From an uncultured Clostridia bacterium (GTDB taxonomy: Bacteria; Bacillota; Clostridia; Oscillospirales; CAG-272): a stretch of DNA of 64,000 nt. Positions within the stretch are counted from its first letter, which is position 1. Each line of letters begins with the position of its first letter. The notes below the pieces were generated by a model, which saw only the letters and a program-made list of their open reading frames with translations, was not told where the DNA came from and did no database searches. The stretch is from the NCBI GenBank assembly GCA_947630015.1, contig CANRFY010000005.1, positions 40,972 through 104,971 of the forward strand, written 5' to 3'. Shown piece by piece: positions 28,474-41,543 of the stretch. The position numbers were made by a program, and so were the translations under genes.

Positions 28474-28505
28474 GAACGCGGATAAAGTTTGGAGAGAATA
28501 GGAGA

Positions 28506-29417
28506 TTATTGGGCAGGAGAAGGGGTTTGCTGCAAATGCGCTTTGCCGGTTACTATTATTGAGCCTGTGTGTCCGCACCGTTCACATCTTTGTTTGCTGC
28601 TGTTCCACTGTGCCGAATGCGGTTCGGTTATAGTTTCGCCGCACGCTGAACACTTGCCTTTATGACAATATGCATCATAGTCATACCAGCTTGTTATATA
28701 TCTCGAATGCGTATGTATTCCGTCACATAATGCGCATTGCGCATATGTGCCATGATCTACCCAAACATGAGTTACATGGAGGCCGGTGATTACATTAAAG
28801 CCTTTGACATCACTTGGCGTAGGTGCTGTTGCCTTCATATCTGCTGTACCATACATGATCTTATCTTTATTTTTACTAAGATATAAATCATTTAAGCCAA
28901 ATGTATGTCCTACTTCATGTGCAATTACTATTGGTAAAATATCGTCATATTCATTTTTATTAAGCTCAATTGTAATTTTAGATATATGGCCATTGCTATC
29001 TGGGTTTGAACTACCTCTTAATGTTTGTGCCATAATTGAAAGATTATTTGGCATTGTTATTAAGCTGAACACTATATTTGCTTCGCTCTCGTTCGTTGTG
29101 CGAACAAATTTTACAACAGAATTCCACTTAGACACTCCATCAACAACATATTGAATAAATTTATCATTGGAAAAAGCAATATAATATTTTAATGTCGTGC
29201 CGGAAATATTGTTCATGTGATATTCCTCACATATACTCCACCCCATGTCTTCTCCGCCGACATAGCTACGGCTTCCATATGGTAGAGATCCATCCGGCTT
29301 TACTATTTGATTTGAATCAATATAGCCTGCTTGTGAATGTGGATGCGCATAAATTGTATTCAGAAAACACATTACAAGAAATATTGAACATATAATACTT
29401 GTCATTTTCTTTTTCAT
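28506..29417 (-). CDS. Secreted metzincin-type zinc protease (copy 1) with Cys-rich C-terminal domain
   Basis: Signal peptide MKKKMTSIICSIFLVMCFLNTIYA; HEVGHTFGLND (HExxHxxGxxD), Met-turn DKIMYG; C-terminal CALC, CSAC, CERC. Confidence 0.8.
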   Translation of the reverse strand: MKKKMTSIICSIFLVMCFLNTIYAHPHSQAGYIDSNQIVKPDGSLPYGSRSYVGGEDMGWSICEEYHMNNISGTTLKYYIAFSNDKFIQYVVDGVSKWNSVVKFVRTTNESEANIVFSLITMPNNLSIMAQTLRGSSNPDSNGHISKITIELNKNEYDDILPIVIAHEVGHTFGLNDLYLSKNKDKIMYGTADMKATAPTPSDVKGFNVITGLHVTHVWVDHGTYAQCALCDGIHTHSRYITSWYDYDAYCHKGKCSACGETITEPHSAQWNSSKQRCERCGHTGSIIVTGKAHLQQTPSPAQ

Positions 29418-29445
29418 TGCATTTCTCCTATTCTCTTAAAATTAT

Positions 29446-30297
29446 TTAGTCTGCATAACTGAAATATTCAAGAAGTTTATCCATCGTTATATACAGTACA
29501 TTGATGTGTTCATCTATATCGCCATTCGATTCAAGCTCGTCGAGCATTTCTTTAGCTTCCGCAAGAGAAATCTCATTATTTTCGATTTGCAGCTTTACTT
29601 CCGATAGTGTTTTGCGCGATGTTTCGGTCATTGCTATGAGCGATGTTTCTGTGCCTATAACGCTTGGCTCTTCCGACAATGCAAACATCTCTATATCGTT
29701 GAGATTGTAATAATTATTCGATCTGCAAAAGTAATCGATTCCGTCGATATTTCTGACATAAAGCGGTGTCGTTGGATCACAAACGATGCCAAATACCTCT
29801 CCATAAGGTTCAAACGGTTCATATCCTTGATCAACAGTCAAGCATAAAAGCAATCGCTCACCGTCGGGGAACGGCGTATATCCATCAATCATGAATTTTG
29901 TAGTTGCATACTGCGCCACATTTAAAGTGTCCGATGAAAAACCGATATCGTTTTTCAATATATTTTCAACGGACGCTTCAAAGATCGTAAAATAATCATT
30001 TGCTTCTCCAAGCCAATGCTCTATCTTGACGACGGCGACAAGATCGGCTTCACTGTATGCCTCGGCGATTGAATATATTTTATTAAAAAAAGGCGATGAT
30101 GTTGGTATCGCGTTAACGTCAACCTGCGGGCGCTCGGGATACGTTTTTTCGCCCTCGCCGTTCGTCTTCGCTATTGCGAATATGCTCACCGAAAGCGCTG
30201 CGGCGAGAAGTATAATCAAAATGCTTACGGTTATTTTTTTCATGTTTTTTGTTTGCTCCTTTTCGTAGTTATCGCGGCGCTTCACAAGCTCCGCCAT
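29446..30297 (-). CDS. Single-TM membrane protein (copy 1), putative anti-sigma-like N-terminus plus extracytoplasmic domain
   Basis: MAELVKRRDNYEKEQTKNMKKITVSILIILLAAALSVSIFAIAKT; ectodomain ADLVAVVKIEHWLGE...YFTIFEASVENILKND...GERLLLCLT. Confidence 0.65.
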   Translation of the reverse strand: MAELVKRRDNYEKEQTKNMKKITVSILIILLAAALSVSIFAIAKTNGEGEKTYPERPQVDVNAIPTSSPFFNKIYSIAEAYSEADLVAVVKIEHWLGEANDYFTIFEASVENILKNDIGFSSDTLNVAQYATTKFMIDGYTPFPDGERLLLCLTVDQGYEPFEPYGEVFGIVCDPTTPLYVRNIDGIDYFCRSNNYYNLNDIEMFALSEEPSVIGTETSLIAMTETSRKTLSEVKLQIENNEISLAEAKEMLDELESNGDIDEHINVLYITMDKLLEYFSYAD

Positions 30298-30342
30298 TAT
30301 TTCTTCATTTGAATTTTGGAGAGAATAGGAGAGAATAGGAGA

Positions 30343-31239
30343 TTATTCAACAGGAGAAGGGGTTTGCTGCAAATGTGCTTTGCCGGTTACAATTATTGAG
30401 CCTGTGTGTCCGCACCGTTCACATCTTTGTTTGCTGCTGTTCCACTGTGCTGAATGAGGTTCGCTTACTGTAGCACCGCATACTGCGCATTTACCCATAT
30501 GACAATAATTATCATAGTCATACCAGCTTGTTCCAAAATTCAAATGAGTATGAATTCCGTCACATATTGTGCATTGTGCATATGAATCATAAACTAACCA
30601 TTCATGAGTAACATGGCGGCCGGTAATTACATTAAAGCCTTTGATATCGCTTGACGTAGGTGCTGTTGCTGTCGAAGCATATGTATAATACATAAGTTTA
30701 TTTCTATTGGATGATGATTTTAAATCTTTTAATCCGAACACGTGACCAATTTCGTGTGTCAAAACTTTTATTATTATATTCGCATCAAGTTCATTGCTGC
30801 CGCCAGTATAATAATCCGGATTAAACGAAATTTTACAACTTTTAATATGACCATTATTATCTACATTATATTCATGGGTTACCGCAACATATGAATAAAA
30901 ATATGATGGAATTGAGCTGTCATAAAATCCGAAAGTAACAGTAGGATTAGAAGCGTCATATAATACCTTTGCACATACACTCCAGTTTTCCGCAGCTTTT
31001 GATACATAACTCTCAAATTCTTTGGTTATGTTAGATGCGAATGTATAGGTAACTGTAGTCGAATTCATATGATAACCTTCATCTACAATCCAACCGATTT
31101 CTTCACTACCTATAAGATCACCATCGTGATCAAGGGCATTCTTTAGCGTACTTGAATGTGCGTTTACATTTATCAGGAGTTGTAGTATAAGAATAAAGCA
31201 TATGATTATAGTAAAAGCGCTCTTTTTACAATGTTTCAT
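30343..31239 (-). CDS. Secreted metzincin-type zinc protease (copy 2) with Cys-rich C-terminal domain
   Basis: HEIGHVFGLKD and NKLMYY; C-terminus SAQWNSSKQRCERCGHTGSIIVTGKAHLQQTPSPVE nearly identical to copy 1. Confidence 0.8.
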   Translation of the reverse strand: MKHCKKSAFTIIICFILILQLLINVNAHSSTLKNALDHDGDLIGSEEIGWIVDEGYHMNSTTVTYTFASNITKEFESYVSKAAENWSVCAKVLYDASNPTVTFGFYDSSIPSYFYSYVAVTHEYNVDNNGHIKSCKISFNPDYYTGGSNELDANIIIKVLTHEIGHVFGLKDLKSSSNRNKLMYYTYASTATAPTSSDIKGFNVITGRHVTHEWLVYDSYAQCTICDGIHTHLNFGTSWYDYDNYCHMGKCAVCGATVSEPHSAQWNSSKQRCERCGHTGSIIVTGKAHLQQTPSPVE

Positions 31240-31280
31240 TTTTTATAACCTCCTATAAATTCCATCGTAATCGTTTTACA

Positions 31281-32138
31281 TTACTCGCCGTGTTCGAGCG
31301 AGTACATATACTTTAAAACGTCCTCTACGGCGAAAATTTTCGTGCCGTGGAATTTGTCCAGAACGTGTTCAGCAGCATTATTAAAATTGATCGCGGCCGC
31401 ATCCGTCATATCGACGTTCATATTGACATTCTGACTGCCGTAAAGTTCTTCACAAAGCTCGCTGTCGTCGACACTGCAGAATTTCTCGATATCGGATAAA
31501 TTCTCAAATGCGCTACTCCTTGCAAGATAAGTTTCACCGTTTATATCTATATAATATAACTCGGTCATCTGCTCCCATTCCGCATAAAATCCCGGACCCG
31601 GCTCATATTCCGACCCTTCGTAATAGCACAGGCATAAAAGCATCTTCGTGCCGACATTATAGATCGGAAAGTCGTCGAACGGCGAGTTTGACGTGCCGCT
31701 CTGAGCGAAAATGATGTCCTGATCAGTATAGCCTATATTGTCTTTGTAAACATTCAGAATACGCGCCTTGAAATATGTTCCATATTTGGTTTCCGTTAAC
31801 CATTCTGTAATTATTATATCGGCCACCATATCCGCAGATTCATATGCTTCACCGATGGTGTGGGATCTGTCCCATATTGCGGACATCCCGCCTGACGGGT
31901 TTGCTACCACCGGCGTTGGCGTGCCGAATTCCGTCGGCTCCGGATATGAGCGGATCGGCACGAGGTAATCTACATCGCCGTCCGTCTTCGCTATTGCGAA
32001 TATGCTCACCGAAAGCGCTGCGGCGAGAATTACTGTCAATATGCTTACGGTTGTTTTTTTCATGTTTTTCGTTTGCTCCTTTTCGTAGTTATCGCGGCGC
32101 TTCACAAGCTCCGCCATTATTTCTTCATTTGTCTTCAT
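31281..32138 (-). CDS. Single-TM membrane protein (copy 2), putative anti-sigma factor, overlapping the ECF sigma gene
   Basis: MKTNEEIMAELVKRRDNYEKEQTKNMKKTTVSILTVILAAALSVSIFAIAKT; 14-bp overlap with the upstream sigma factor gene. Confidence 0.68.
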   Translation of the reverse strand: MKTNEEIMAELVKRRDNYEKEQTKNMKKTTVSILTVILAAALSVSIFAIAKTDGDVDYLVPIRSYPEPTEFGTPTPVVANPSGGMSAIWDRSHTIGEAYESADMVADIIITEWLTETKYGTYFKARILNVYKDNIGYTDQDIIFAQSGTSNSPFDDFPIYNVGTKMLLCLCYYEGSEYEPGPGFYAEWEQMTELYYIDINGETYLARSSAFENLSDIEKFCSVDDSELCEELYGSQNVNMNVDMTDAAAINFNNAAEHVLDKFHGTKIFAVEDVLKYMYSLEHGE

Positions 32139-32679
32139 ATACGAATCCCTCCGATTCGAGTTTCTTTTTGAGAGCCGCTCGGCCGCGGCTCAAGAGATTG
32201 TTCACCTGCACCCTGCTTTTTTTCATCACAGACGCAATCTCCGCCATGCTCATTTCCTCGAAATAGAACAAGTAAAGCGTCTGTCTGTAATCGGGCGAAA
32301 GCTCGCCGAGCGCGCGGTGGAGCGCGCGTTTGCGCTCGTCTTTTATATAGCTGTCCTCAACGTTTTCTTCCTCGTCCGCGATTTCCAGCTCGTCCGGCGG
32401 CGTCGGCGATATGCGCGACCGGCGGCGCATATCGTCGATCGCCATGTTTCGCGCTATCGCGTAAAGCCACGTTTTAAACGTGCTTTTGCCGCCGAAGCGC
32501 GGCTTTTTGATGAAAAGCTTCGCGAACGTGTCCTCCATCAGTTCCTCGGCGCGCACAATATCGCCTGTAACGGTGCGAAGATACATCGTCAGCTCGACTT
32601 TGTATTCGTTTATGATCCCGACGAATGCGTCGTCGTCGCCGTCAAGATATCGGCGGTAGCATTGCGCGCCGCTGTCCAT
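32125..32679 (-). CDS. ECF-family RNA polymerase sigma factor
   Basis: MDSGAQCYRRYLDGDDDAFVGIINEYKVEL...FKTWLYAIARNMAIDDMRRRSR...LSPDYRQTLYLFYFEEMSMAEIASVMKKSRVQVNNLLSRGRAALKKKLE; AAGGAGCG Shine-Dalgarno. Confidence 0.9.
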   Translation of the reverse strand: MDSGAQCYRRYLDGDDDAFVGIINEYKVELTMYLRTVTGDIVRAEELMEDTFAKLFIKKPRFGGKSTFKTWLYAIARNMAIDDMRRRSRISPTPPDELEIADEEENVEDSYIKDERKRALHRALGELSPDYRQTLYLFYFEEMSMAEIASVMKKSRVQVNNLLSRGRAALKKKLESEGFVYEDK

Positions 32680-32786
32680 ATTGCGCTCCTTTCTTATTTC
32701 GTTTTTCGGGCCCTTCACTGTTTAGACGTTCGGGACATATGAAATCTATCACTAATGCCGTGCAAAATTTGATTTTTAAAAAGCAT

Positions 32787-32822
32787 AAGGGAGAAGCTCG
32801 CAGGACAGGCTTCTCCCTTTTT
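32787..32822. terminator. Terminator-like hairpin downstream of polC
   Basis: AAGGGAGAAGCTCGCAGGACAGGCTTCTCCCTTTTT. Confidence 0.65.
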
Positions 32823-38404: not shown

Positions 38405-39448
38405 TCAGAATAAATTCGCAATATCCTTGAACGTCACAAGCACCATTATGCCGAGCAGTATCATGATGCCGACAAAATGCACCATCGCCTCGACGTTCTG
38501 ATTTACGCGCTTGCCGCGTATCAGCTCTATGATCATAAACAGTAGTCTGCCGCCGTCGAGCGCCGGTATCGGCAACAGATTCATGATGCCAAGATTCATC
38601 GACAATACGACGGCAATATAAACAAGATCGGATATGCCGCTCGACGCCGCCTCGCCGAGTATTTCGGTGACGCCGACGGGGCCGCTGACGGCCTCGACGC
38701 CGTACCGTCCCGTCACAAGGTCGAACAGCGATTCCCATATCATCTCGACCGTCAGCTCCGATCGGAAAAACGCCTGCTTCACGACGTTTCCGAACGTGCG
38801 CGGTTCGGAGTAAACGTAGAAATCGAGCGCGCCGAACGCGATCCCCTCGTCAGACGTCAAAGGAAAGCTGACGCTTTCAAGCTCGATCGTCTCCCCGTCG
38901 CGTTCGACCGTCAACGGAATCGGCTTGATTCCGCGTCTCATCACCTCATACGCGAGTTCGTTCGCCGTATGGACGCGCTCGCCGTCGACGCTTACGAGCC
39001 TGTCGCCGGCGCGAAGTCCGCTCGCCTCGGATACCGCCATCTCGCCGTCCTCGCGCTCGACGAATCCGTAAACGACTGTGCTTCCGAGCGATCCCGAGAA
39101 TATGACGAGCGCCGTCATCAGTATGATGCCTATCGTCAGATTTGAAAGCGATCCCGCCGCCGTGATCAAAAACCGCTGCCAGAGCGGCTTATTCGGCAGC
39201 GCGTTCGGGTCGTCGGAGTCGTCGTCCTCCCCCGCCATGCTCGTAAATCCGCCGAACGGCAGAAGCCGCAGCGAATATCTCGTGCCTGATTTCTTTCCGA
39301 CCCATGAGATCAACTTCGGCCCCATTCCGATCGCGAATTCAAGCACGGTGACGCCGCACGCGCGCGCGACGAGAAAATGCCCCATCTCATGAATGAAAAT
39401 GAGCAGTCCGAACACGAGTATTGCGATTATTATCGAAAAAATGTTCAA
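38405..39448 (-). CDS. rseP: RIP metalloprotease RseP
   Basis: FIHEMGHFLVARACGV, PDZ domain, NLLPIPALDGGRLLF. Confidence 0.94.
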   Translation of the reverse strand: MNIFSIIIAILVFGLLIFIHEMGHFLVARACGVTVLEFAIGMGPKLISWVGKKSGTRYSLRLLPFGGFTSMAGEDDDSDDPNALPNKPLWQRFLITAAGSLSNLTIGIILMTALVIFSGSLGSTVVYGFVEREDGEMAVSEASGLRAGDRLVSVDGERVHTANELAYEVMRRGIKPIPLTVERDGETIELESVSFPLTSDEGIAFGALDFYVYSEPRTFGNVVKQAFFRSELTVEMIWESLFDLVTGRYGVEAVSGPVGVTEILGEAASSGISDLVYIAVVLSMNLGIMNLLPIPALDGGRLLFMIIELIRGKRVNQNVEAMVHFVGIMILLGIMVLVTFKDIANLF

Positions 39449-40694: not shown

Positions 40695-41543
40695 TTACGA
40701 AAAATATGAAAAGATCATCGAAAACACGAACAGCAGCGGCGTCACCGCGATCACGCTGTCGAATCTGTCGAGCATCCCGCCGTGGCCGGGGAACAATTTT
40801 CCGAAGTCCTTTATCCCATACGTGCGTTTGATGAACGAAGCGTTGAGATCGCCTATCTGCGATATGATCGACAGGCACGCGCCCGTGCAGCAGATCGCGA
40901 TATAATCGGCTGTCAGCTCCGTCGCAGCGGATACGATAAATCCGTAAAGCGCGAATATCGCGACCGCCATAACGGTGCCGCCGACCGAACCCTCGACGGT
41001 CTTTTTCGGCGATACGCTCGGGATGAGCTTATGCTTGCCGAAGAAGCTGCCGCACAGATATGCAAAGCTGTCCGTCGCCCATGAAGCTATGAATACCATC
41101 GGCAGGATAAATCCGCCGTGTGGGCGCTGCGTTATCGCCACCGCCGTCATCGACGCGGCGCTCACGTATACGAGCATCAGGCATATTTCCGATACGGGCG
41201 AGCGGTTCGGCTTCAATGCGCCGAATACGCCGAGCGCATACAGTATGAATACGGCCGCAAACGCCGCCGTCAGAAGCGACGGCGTCCATATCGCCGTATC
41301 GGCGTGTTCGCTGCTCCATCCGATATAGTATTGCAGAAACGGACAGGCCGCCGCCAAAACGCAGAACAGAAGCGTTGCGCCGCCGGAGAGCTGCGACTTG
41401 TTCTTTATGCATTCGGACGTCTCGTACATCGAAAACAGCGCTATGATGCCCCACAAAACGGGCGTTACGGGCGTGTCGAAGAATATGAGCGCCGGCACAA
41501 GTATCGCGACGAGCAGCACGGACGTTATGATTCGTTTTAACAT
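40695..41543 (-). CDS. cdsA: Phosphatidate cytidylyltransferase
   Basis: MLKRIITSVLLVAI...; SPKKTVEGSVGG and PGHGGMLDRFDS signature. Confidence 0.93.
   Translation of the reverse strand: MLKRIITSVLLVAILVPALIFFDTPVTPVLWGIIALFSMYETSECIKNKSQLSGGATLLFCVLAAACPFLQYYIGWSSEHADTAIWTPSLLTAAFAAVFILYALGVFGALKPNRSPVSEICLMLVYVSAASMTAVAITQRPHGGFILPMVFIASWATDSFAYLCGSFFGKHKLIPSVSPKKTVEGSVGGTVMAVAIFALYGFIVSAATELTADYIAICCTGACLSIISQIGDLNASFIKRTYGIKDFGKLFPGHGGMLDRFDSVIAVTPLLFVFSMIFSYFS

Follow-up and report, generated by a model that had tools for sequence, protein, structure and literature searches.

The 64,000-nucleotide stretch analysed here (hereafter the window; positions 40,972 to 104,971 of contig CANRFY010000005.1, assembly GCA_947630015.1, from an uncultured Clostridia bacterium) carries an operon in which the gene of an extracytoplasmic function (ECF) sigma factor precedes two successive gene pairs, each encoding a single-pass membrane protein and a secreted protease of the metzincin type. 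All five genes lie on the minus strand: the sigma factor (32125..32679), the membrane protein TM1 (31281..32138) and the protease PR1 (30343..31239), followed by TM2 (29446..30297) and PR2 (28506..29417). Their presence and coordinates, the protease motif, the gene order, and the 14-bp overlap between TM1 and the sigma gene, all proposed in an earlier sequence-only reading, were borne out by a check of the open reading frames (ORFs). In the wider neighbourhood, the order on the same strand is dxr-rseP-ispG-polC, a likely terminator, sigma, TM1, PR1, TM2, PR2, and DUF3842. The terminator, of the intrinsic type (32778..32817, minus strand; GGGAGAAGC...GCTTCTCCC, then a T run), lies behind polC, and its stem is kept in three of the three genomes aligned; the sigma operon therefore probably has its own promoter. 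Matches to the consensus sigma-70 promoter were fewer than in shuffled sequences. The sigma factor itself (184 amino acids) displays regions 2 and 4 above the Pfam cut-off (PF04542, PF08281, and TIGR02937; Pfam/NCBIfam). Its gene starts with an ATG at 32679, behind a ribosome-binding site of the AAGGAG type, and ends with a stop at 32125; comparison of this start region with two relatives (genomes G006 and G010), whose orthologues share 75-76% identity, revealed that the start codon is conserved.

Both proteases possess a signal peptide, a metzincin domain, and a Cys/His-rich C-terminus. Their extended motifs, HEIGHVFGLKD...KLMY in PR1 and HEVGHTFGLND...KIMY in PR2, include the Met-turn and an Asp as the third zinc ligand of HExxHxxGxxD, in agreement with the metzincin identity first read from the motif. 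Across seven aligned proteases, the H, E, H, G, and D of the motif and the Met of the turn (M183 in PR1) are invariant. The Matrixin profile PF00413 matched PR1 at 29.2 bits (cut-off 24), PR2 fell just below the cut-offs of both M7 and M10, and one relative exceeded that of M7; the AlphaFold2 model of PR1 was weak, with a predicted local distance difference test (pLDDT) score of 40.6. Judging by their sequences, both proteases leave little space for a propeptide between the signal peptide and the catalytic domain, and control by an inhibitor would therefore make sense. Two further observations concern these proteins. All seven aligned metzincins carry a His at the position of His28 of PR1 (31156-31158, minus strand), the residue immediately behind the cleavage predicted for the signal peptide (A27-H28). 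In genome G036, the metzincins at loci L082, L084, L102, L103, and L081 carry C-terminal Cys/His-rich repeats of about 40 residues that are near identical across these scattered loci.

TM1 comprises a cytoplasmic N-terminal tip of 27-28 amino acids, one transmembrane (TM) helix (hydrophobic segment 28-54), a linker of about 40 residues, and an ectodomain (about 31494-31865), and TM2 shares this architecture (ectodomain about 29698-30078). Neither protein, nor any of their relatives, matched a Pfam family, including DUF4163/DUF3298, the ectodomain of RsiV, and a PDB sequence profile of the partner protein returned nothing meaningful. A TIMP/NTR fold had been predicted from the sequence pattern ahead of the fold search. 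In an AlphaFold2 model of TM2, computed from an alignment with its relatives, the ectodomain core reached a pLDDT of about 70-83, and a Foldseek search of the PDB with this core retrieved the agrin NtA domain (E 2.6e-4), TIMP-1 in complexes with matrix metalloproteases (4.1e-4 to 8.3e-4), and the NTR domains of PCOLCE and meteorin. Among the top 20 PDB matches, 19 were TIMP, NTR, or agrin NtA entries; the remaining one was the C-terminal domain of C3b, which is likewise an NTR domain. The ectodomain of TM2, and by homology that of TM1, is thus predicted to adopt the netrin/TIMP inhibitor fold of the animal metzincin inhibitors. An ECF-linked protein of the same genus (G007) that appeared TIMP-like by eye was rejected as a further example (hhalign 3.6%).

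The cytoplasmic tip connects these proteins to the sigma factor. Nine ECF-linked membrane proteins (eight from the same genus and one from another family, in G216), all encoded behind sigmas of one ECF subgroup, yield a gap-free alignment of 28 cytoplasmic residues, with ectodomains that differ, giving a pattern of roughly MK(T/S)xEExxxxVxxRRxxYE and a mean pair score of 38.3, against -7.7 +/- 1.7 for shuffles. Moreover, the length of the cytoplasmic portion of TIMP-like proteins follows sigma linkage: 21-58 residues in the six that are sigma-linked versus 2-9 in the 21 that are unlinked (one, with a doubtful start, has 19; p 1e-4). The tip thus resembles a sigma-factor switch and may restrain or modulate the sigma. 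Both TM1 and TM2 also contain, where the TM helix reaches the outer face, the sequence AIAK, which could be a signal-peptidase site. As a separate observation on the same sigma subgroup, a second link to protease inhibition was seen at four same-genus loci, where a serpin gene follows the ECF sigma and its membrane protein (L017 from 3080, confirmed by Pfam; L018 1-484, L020 from 2690, and L023 from 2769, by similarity).

The pairing of partner and protease recurs well beyond the window. Of 396 genomes of the order, 13 matched the protease profile, as did 6 of 392 genomes sampled from the class (the window genome is included in both counts), and a scan of genome contigs with a third protease alignment yielded five loci. 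We tabulated 18 pairs from ten genomes, including this one, in which the partner comes first and the protease second on the same strand, spaced by -20 to +130 bp. These genomes represent a number of families and at least two orders, and the association suspected from the window is thus more frequent than chance. Several genomes hold multiple pairs (five tabulated in G036, four in G111). Reversed order was seen in G148 and in G368, where four TIMP-like membrane proteins in tandem come after a single metzincin (L079 3656-7216; 96.6% in a profile comparison with the window family). The protease C37 of G036 has no intact partner adjoining it. Outside sigma operons, the partners are lipoproteins or TM-anchored proteins lacking a cytoplasmic extension. 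In G699 (L098 3772-4516) and G560 (L099 3436-4221), the protease of the pair is split or truncated, and these copies are probably decaying.

Within the pair, the two domains vary together. Distances between TIMP-like domains correlate with distances between protease domains (Mantel r 0.89, p 2e-4), a correlation of which phylogeny explains part; among paralogues of a single genome, the values were r 0.93 in G036 (n=5) and r 0.99 in G111 (n=4). The well-supported clades of the TIMP-domain and protease trees agree as well. In the window, this variable core is framed by constant ends. The tip and TM helix of TM1 (31982..32130) and of TM2 (30159..30314), both on the minus strand, share about 90% or more DNA identity, synonymous sites included, and the last ~35 codons of the proteases with their flanks (30313..30450 for PR1 and 28483..28613 for PR2, minus strand) are likewise near identical, third codon positions included. 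At the protein level, TM1 and TM2 are 91% identical over the tip and TM (the first ~50 codons) and 30% over the ectodomain, and PR1 and PR2 agree at 41% of positions in the catalytic domain and at almost every one of the final 35. The suggestion of two tandem copies therefore stands for the architecture, yet not for simple copies, since the middle retains only ~30-41% protein identity. As the agreement within the ends extends to third codon positions, it reflects recent exchange and not selection alone. Separate acquisition of the two pairs was considered and rejected, as the two cores are mutual closest relatives in both trees (support 95/95 for the protease domains and 93/90 for the TIMP-like domains); an old duplication with later homogenisation of the ends fits better. 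A comparable pattern was found in G111, where pairs a and c share 93% of the anchor, 35% of the ectodomain, 39% of the catalytic domain, and 88% of the C-terminus, and G036 is partly alike.

Comparison of related operons further suggests how the modules came together. G006 and G010, the closest relatives, retain the order polC-sigma-TM-DUF3842 and the same tip, followed by another short ectodomain, and contain neither a TIMP-like protein nor a metzincin at this position. The simplest history is therefore that the TIMP-like ectodomain and the metzincin were joined to an older sigma/tip operon. Other combinations were observed elsewhere. In G216, full-length comparison with the window family gave an hhalign match of 99.8%; in G109, a different type of tip precedes a TIMP-like domain (a weaker profile match, 70%) and then a metzincin; and G345 encodes two TIMP-like domains in a single protein. 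In G792, a BlaR1-type M56 receptor has the TIMP-like domain as its ectodomain, at the C-terminus, and its gene adjoins that of a BlaI-like repressor (L138 3944-5485 and 5482-5877, minus strand). Known BlaR1 ectodomains bind beta-lactams. The likeness to BlaR1/MecR1 concerns G792, the window locus itself being of the ECF type. Occurring on ECF tips and on a BlaR1-type receptor, the domain thus appears to serve as a sensor in more than one type of chassis, and the pairs suggest that what it senses would be a metzincin.

Two described systems resemble parts of this locus. In Listeria monocytogenes, a secreted metzincin with the HExxHxxGxxH/D motif, Mtz, is encoded next to Tim, a TIMP-like protein anchored in the membrane (Boichis et al. 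2021, PMC8235301); Mtz cleaves Tim about 50 residues from its N-terminus and thereby releases it, while the E136A protease does not, and metzincin/TIMP-like pairing has been reported across Gram-positives (PMC8235301). Compared with the window locus by layout and description, the Listeria system differs in that the metzincin gene comes first, Tim is a lipoprotein controlled by a cI/cro-type switch, phage genes lie nearby, and neither a sigma factor nor a cytoplasmic tip is reported. For a phage origin, which has been proposed in the Listeria case, we obtained no support: no convincing viral relative emerged when the fold was searched in BFVD, and a related protease (L089), compared by tblastn with phage records, had no match. 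The other system is SigV/RsiV of Bacillus subtilis (PMC5014341), which shares the ECF sigma operon, the single TM helix, and the short cytoplasmic N-terminus. RsiV is both inhibitor and receptor of lysozyme, whose binding exposes it to signal peptidase and then to RasP, so that sigma-V is freed (PMC5014341). It differs in its DUF4163/DUF3298 ectodomain and its ligand, the window proteins having a predicted TIMP-like fold and, presumably, the protease of the same operon as ligand; the resemblance is hence one of working principle and not of family membership. The sequence-only reading had recognised no described system. The metzincin/TIMP-like pair and the inhibitor-type anti-sigma receptor are each known; their combination was not found, as in the open-access literature no paper was encountered that joins a TIMP-like domain to an anti-sigma factor or to BlaR1. 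What is new is therefore the junction of the pair with an ECF sigma operon, and the BlaR1-type use strengthens the sensor reading. In Bacteroidota, the KLIKK proteases of Tannerella forsythia, some of them metzincins, are secreted and encoded beside lipoprotein inhibitors, the potempins, which offer a lead; they are not known to be linked to a sigma factor.

The gene order, the protease motif, the fold, the recurrence and co-variation of the pair, the restriction of the tip to sigma-linked partners, and the joining to the operon come from sequence, comparison, or prediction, and the model that we favour, and hold to be reasonably probable, builds on them. An ECF sigma operon would have gained two metzincin/TIMP-like modules, in each of which the protease (PR1, PR2) has its cognate membrane partner (TM1, TM2), whose ectodomain serves as inhibitor and receptor at once. 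The tip, common to the membrane proteins behind this sigma subgroup, would hold or modulate the sigma factor, and the ectodomain would bind its protease, restraining it at the surface and acting as a receptor, as RsiV does with lysozyme. Binding, or cleavage of the linker between the TM helix and the TIMP-like domain in the manner of Mtz on Tim, would remove the ectodomain. A site-2 protease would then cut the TM stub; a candidate is the RseP/RasP-type M50 protease in the upstream dxr-rseP-ispG-polC cluster (38405..39448, minus strand; PF02163, E 5e-64), 5.7 kb from the operon. The released sigma would raise expression of its own operon and of other targets. The inferred parts are the inhibition of the protease, the specificity of each cognate pair, the cleavage, the intramembrane step, the release of sigma, and the direction of the signal. 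The initial suggestion of a protease-signalling module, in which the membrane proteins regulate the sigma and/or restrain the proteases, is thus partly supported, each half independently, by the conserved tip and the predicted inhibitor-type fold respectively.

Several findings weigh against this model. The TIMP-like fold was modelled on TM2 only, from seven sequences, with a mean pLDDT of 58.7, and no Cys lies near the domain start of TM1 or TM2, where animal TIMPs have their zinc-binding N-terminal Cys; our claim is therefore of a TIMP-like fold and not of a TIMP. The tip matched no named anti-sigma domain in Pfam, and no clear ECF promoter or -35 element was recognised upstream. For the Listeria pair, cleavage of Tim has been demonstrated and inhibition of Mtz has not (PMC8235301). 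Finally, G216 and G799 encode a sigma, a tip, and a TIMP-like ectodomain with no adjacent protease (in G799, the contig ends just behind the sigma/TIMP operon), and the ligand therefore need not be the product of a neighbouring gene.

Other explanations were weighed on the same evidence. The pairs might serve plain self-protection, with the TIMP-like protein shielding the producer, the sigma merely driving expression, and the tip a signalling-free leftover of the host operon. The predominance elsewhere of lipoprotein or simply anchored partners without a sigma, and the immunity-like layout of G368 with its single metzincin and four TIMP-like proteins, fit such a role; however, the two copies have kept almost the same tip, tips of at least two kinds also occur on partners linked to a sigma in other families, and the domain occurs on a BlaR1-type receptor, so that we regard self-protection alone as unlikely. 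Shedding as in Listeria could instead be the main job, the freed fragment, with or without the protease, acting on the cell wall or on neighbours and sigma control being secondary. This has an experimental precedent for both shedding and neighbour-cell effects (PMC8235301), and the linker of about 40 residues in TM1 would suit it, but it leaves the tracking of tips with sigma linkage unexplained, and released products find no support here; we consider it improbable. Equally improbable, in our estimate, is that the ectodomain senses foreign metzincins from a host, a competitor, or kin, the encoded proteases being decoys or amplifiers: the sensors of G216 and G799 would accord with this, whereas the co-variation of the ectodomain with the neighbouring protease argues for the cognate protease as the partner.

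Returning to the receptor model, a wider version of it can be put forward tentatively, at slightly less than an even chance. The TIMP-like domain may serve bacteria at large as a receptor module that recognises secreted metzincins, grafted onto at least two kinds of ECF anti-sigma tip and onto a BlaR1-type receptor, through which the output of the cell's own or a neighbour's protease is read by means of a restraining inhibitor; the inhibitor-protease core would diversify as a block between constant ends, with cognate pairs kept together. An inhibitor acting as a receptor is established for RsiV and lysozyme, and here the inhibitor fold is that of the controllers of animal matrix metalloproteases. 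The ligand would be a protease from the same operon, and the domain is present on two unrelated signalling chassis. A cell may in this way detect proteases, whether its own or those of others, and respond with altered gene expression, and the locus offers a concrete route by which bacteria could gauge secreted protease activity. It also supplies natural cognate and non-cognate pairs for comparisons of specificity. A further implication is that ligands can be assigned to anti-sigma ectodomains that lack annotation, through the occurrence of the same domain in enzyme-inhibitor pairs.

Elsewhere in the window genome, ORF shadows with a common string (like LLAGKETL) were seen on different contigs (L126 2129-2494, L128 3099-3422, and L129 4130-4375), and this string is probably a dispersed repeat.

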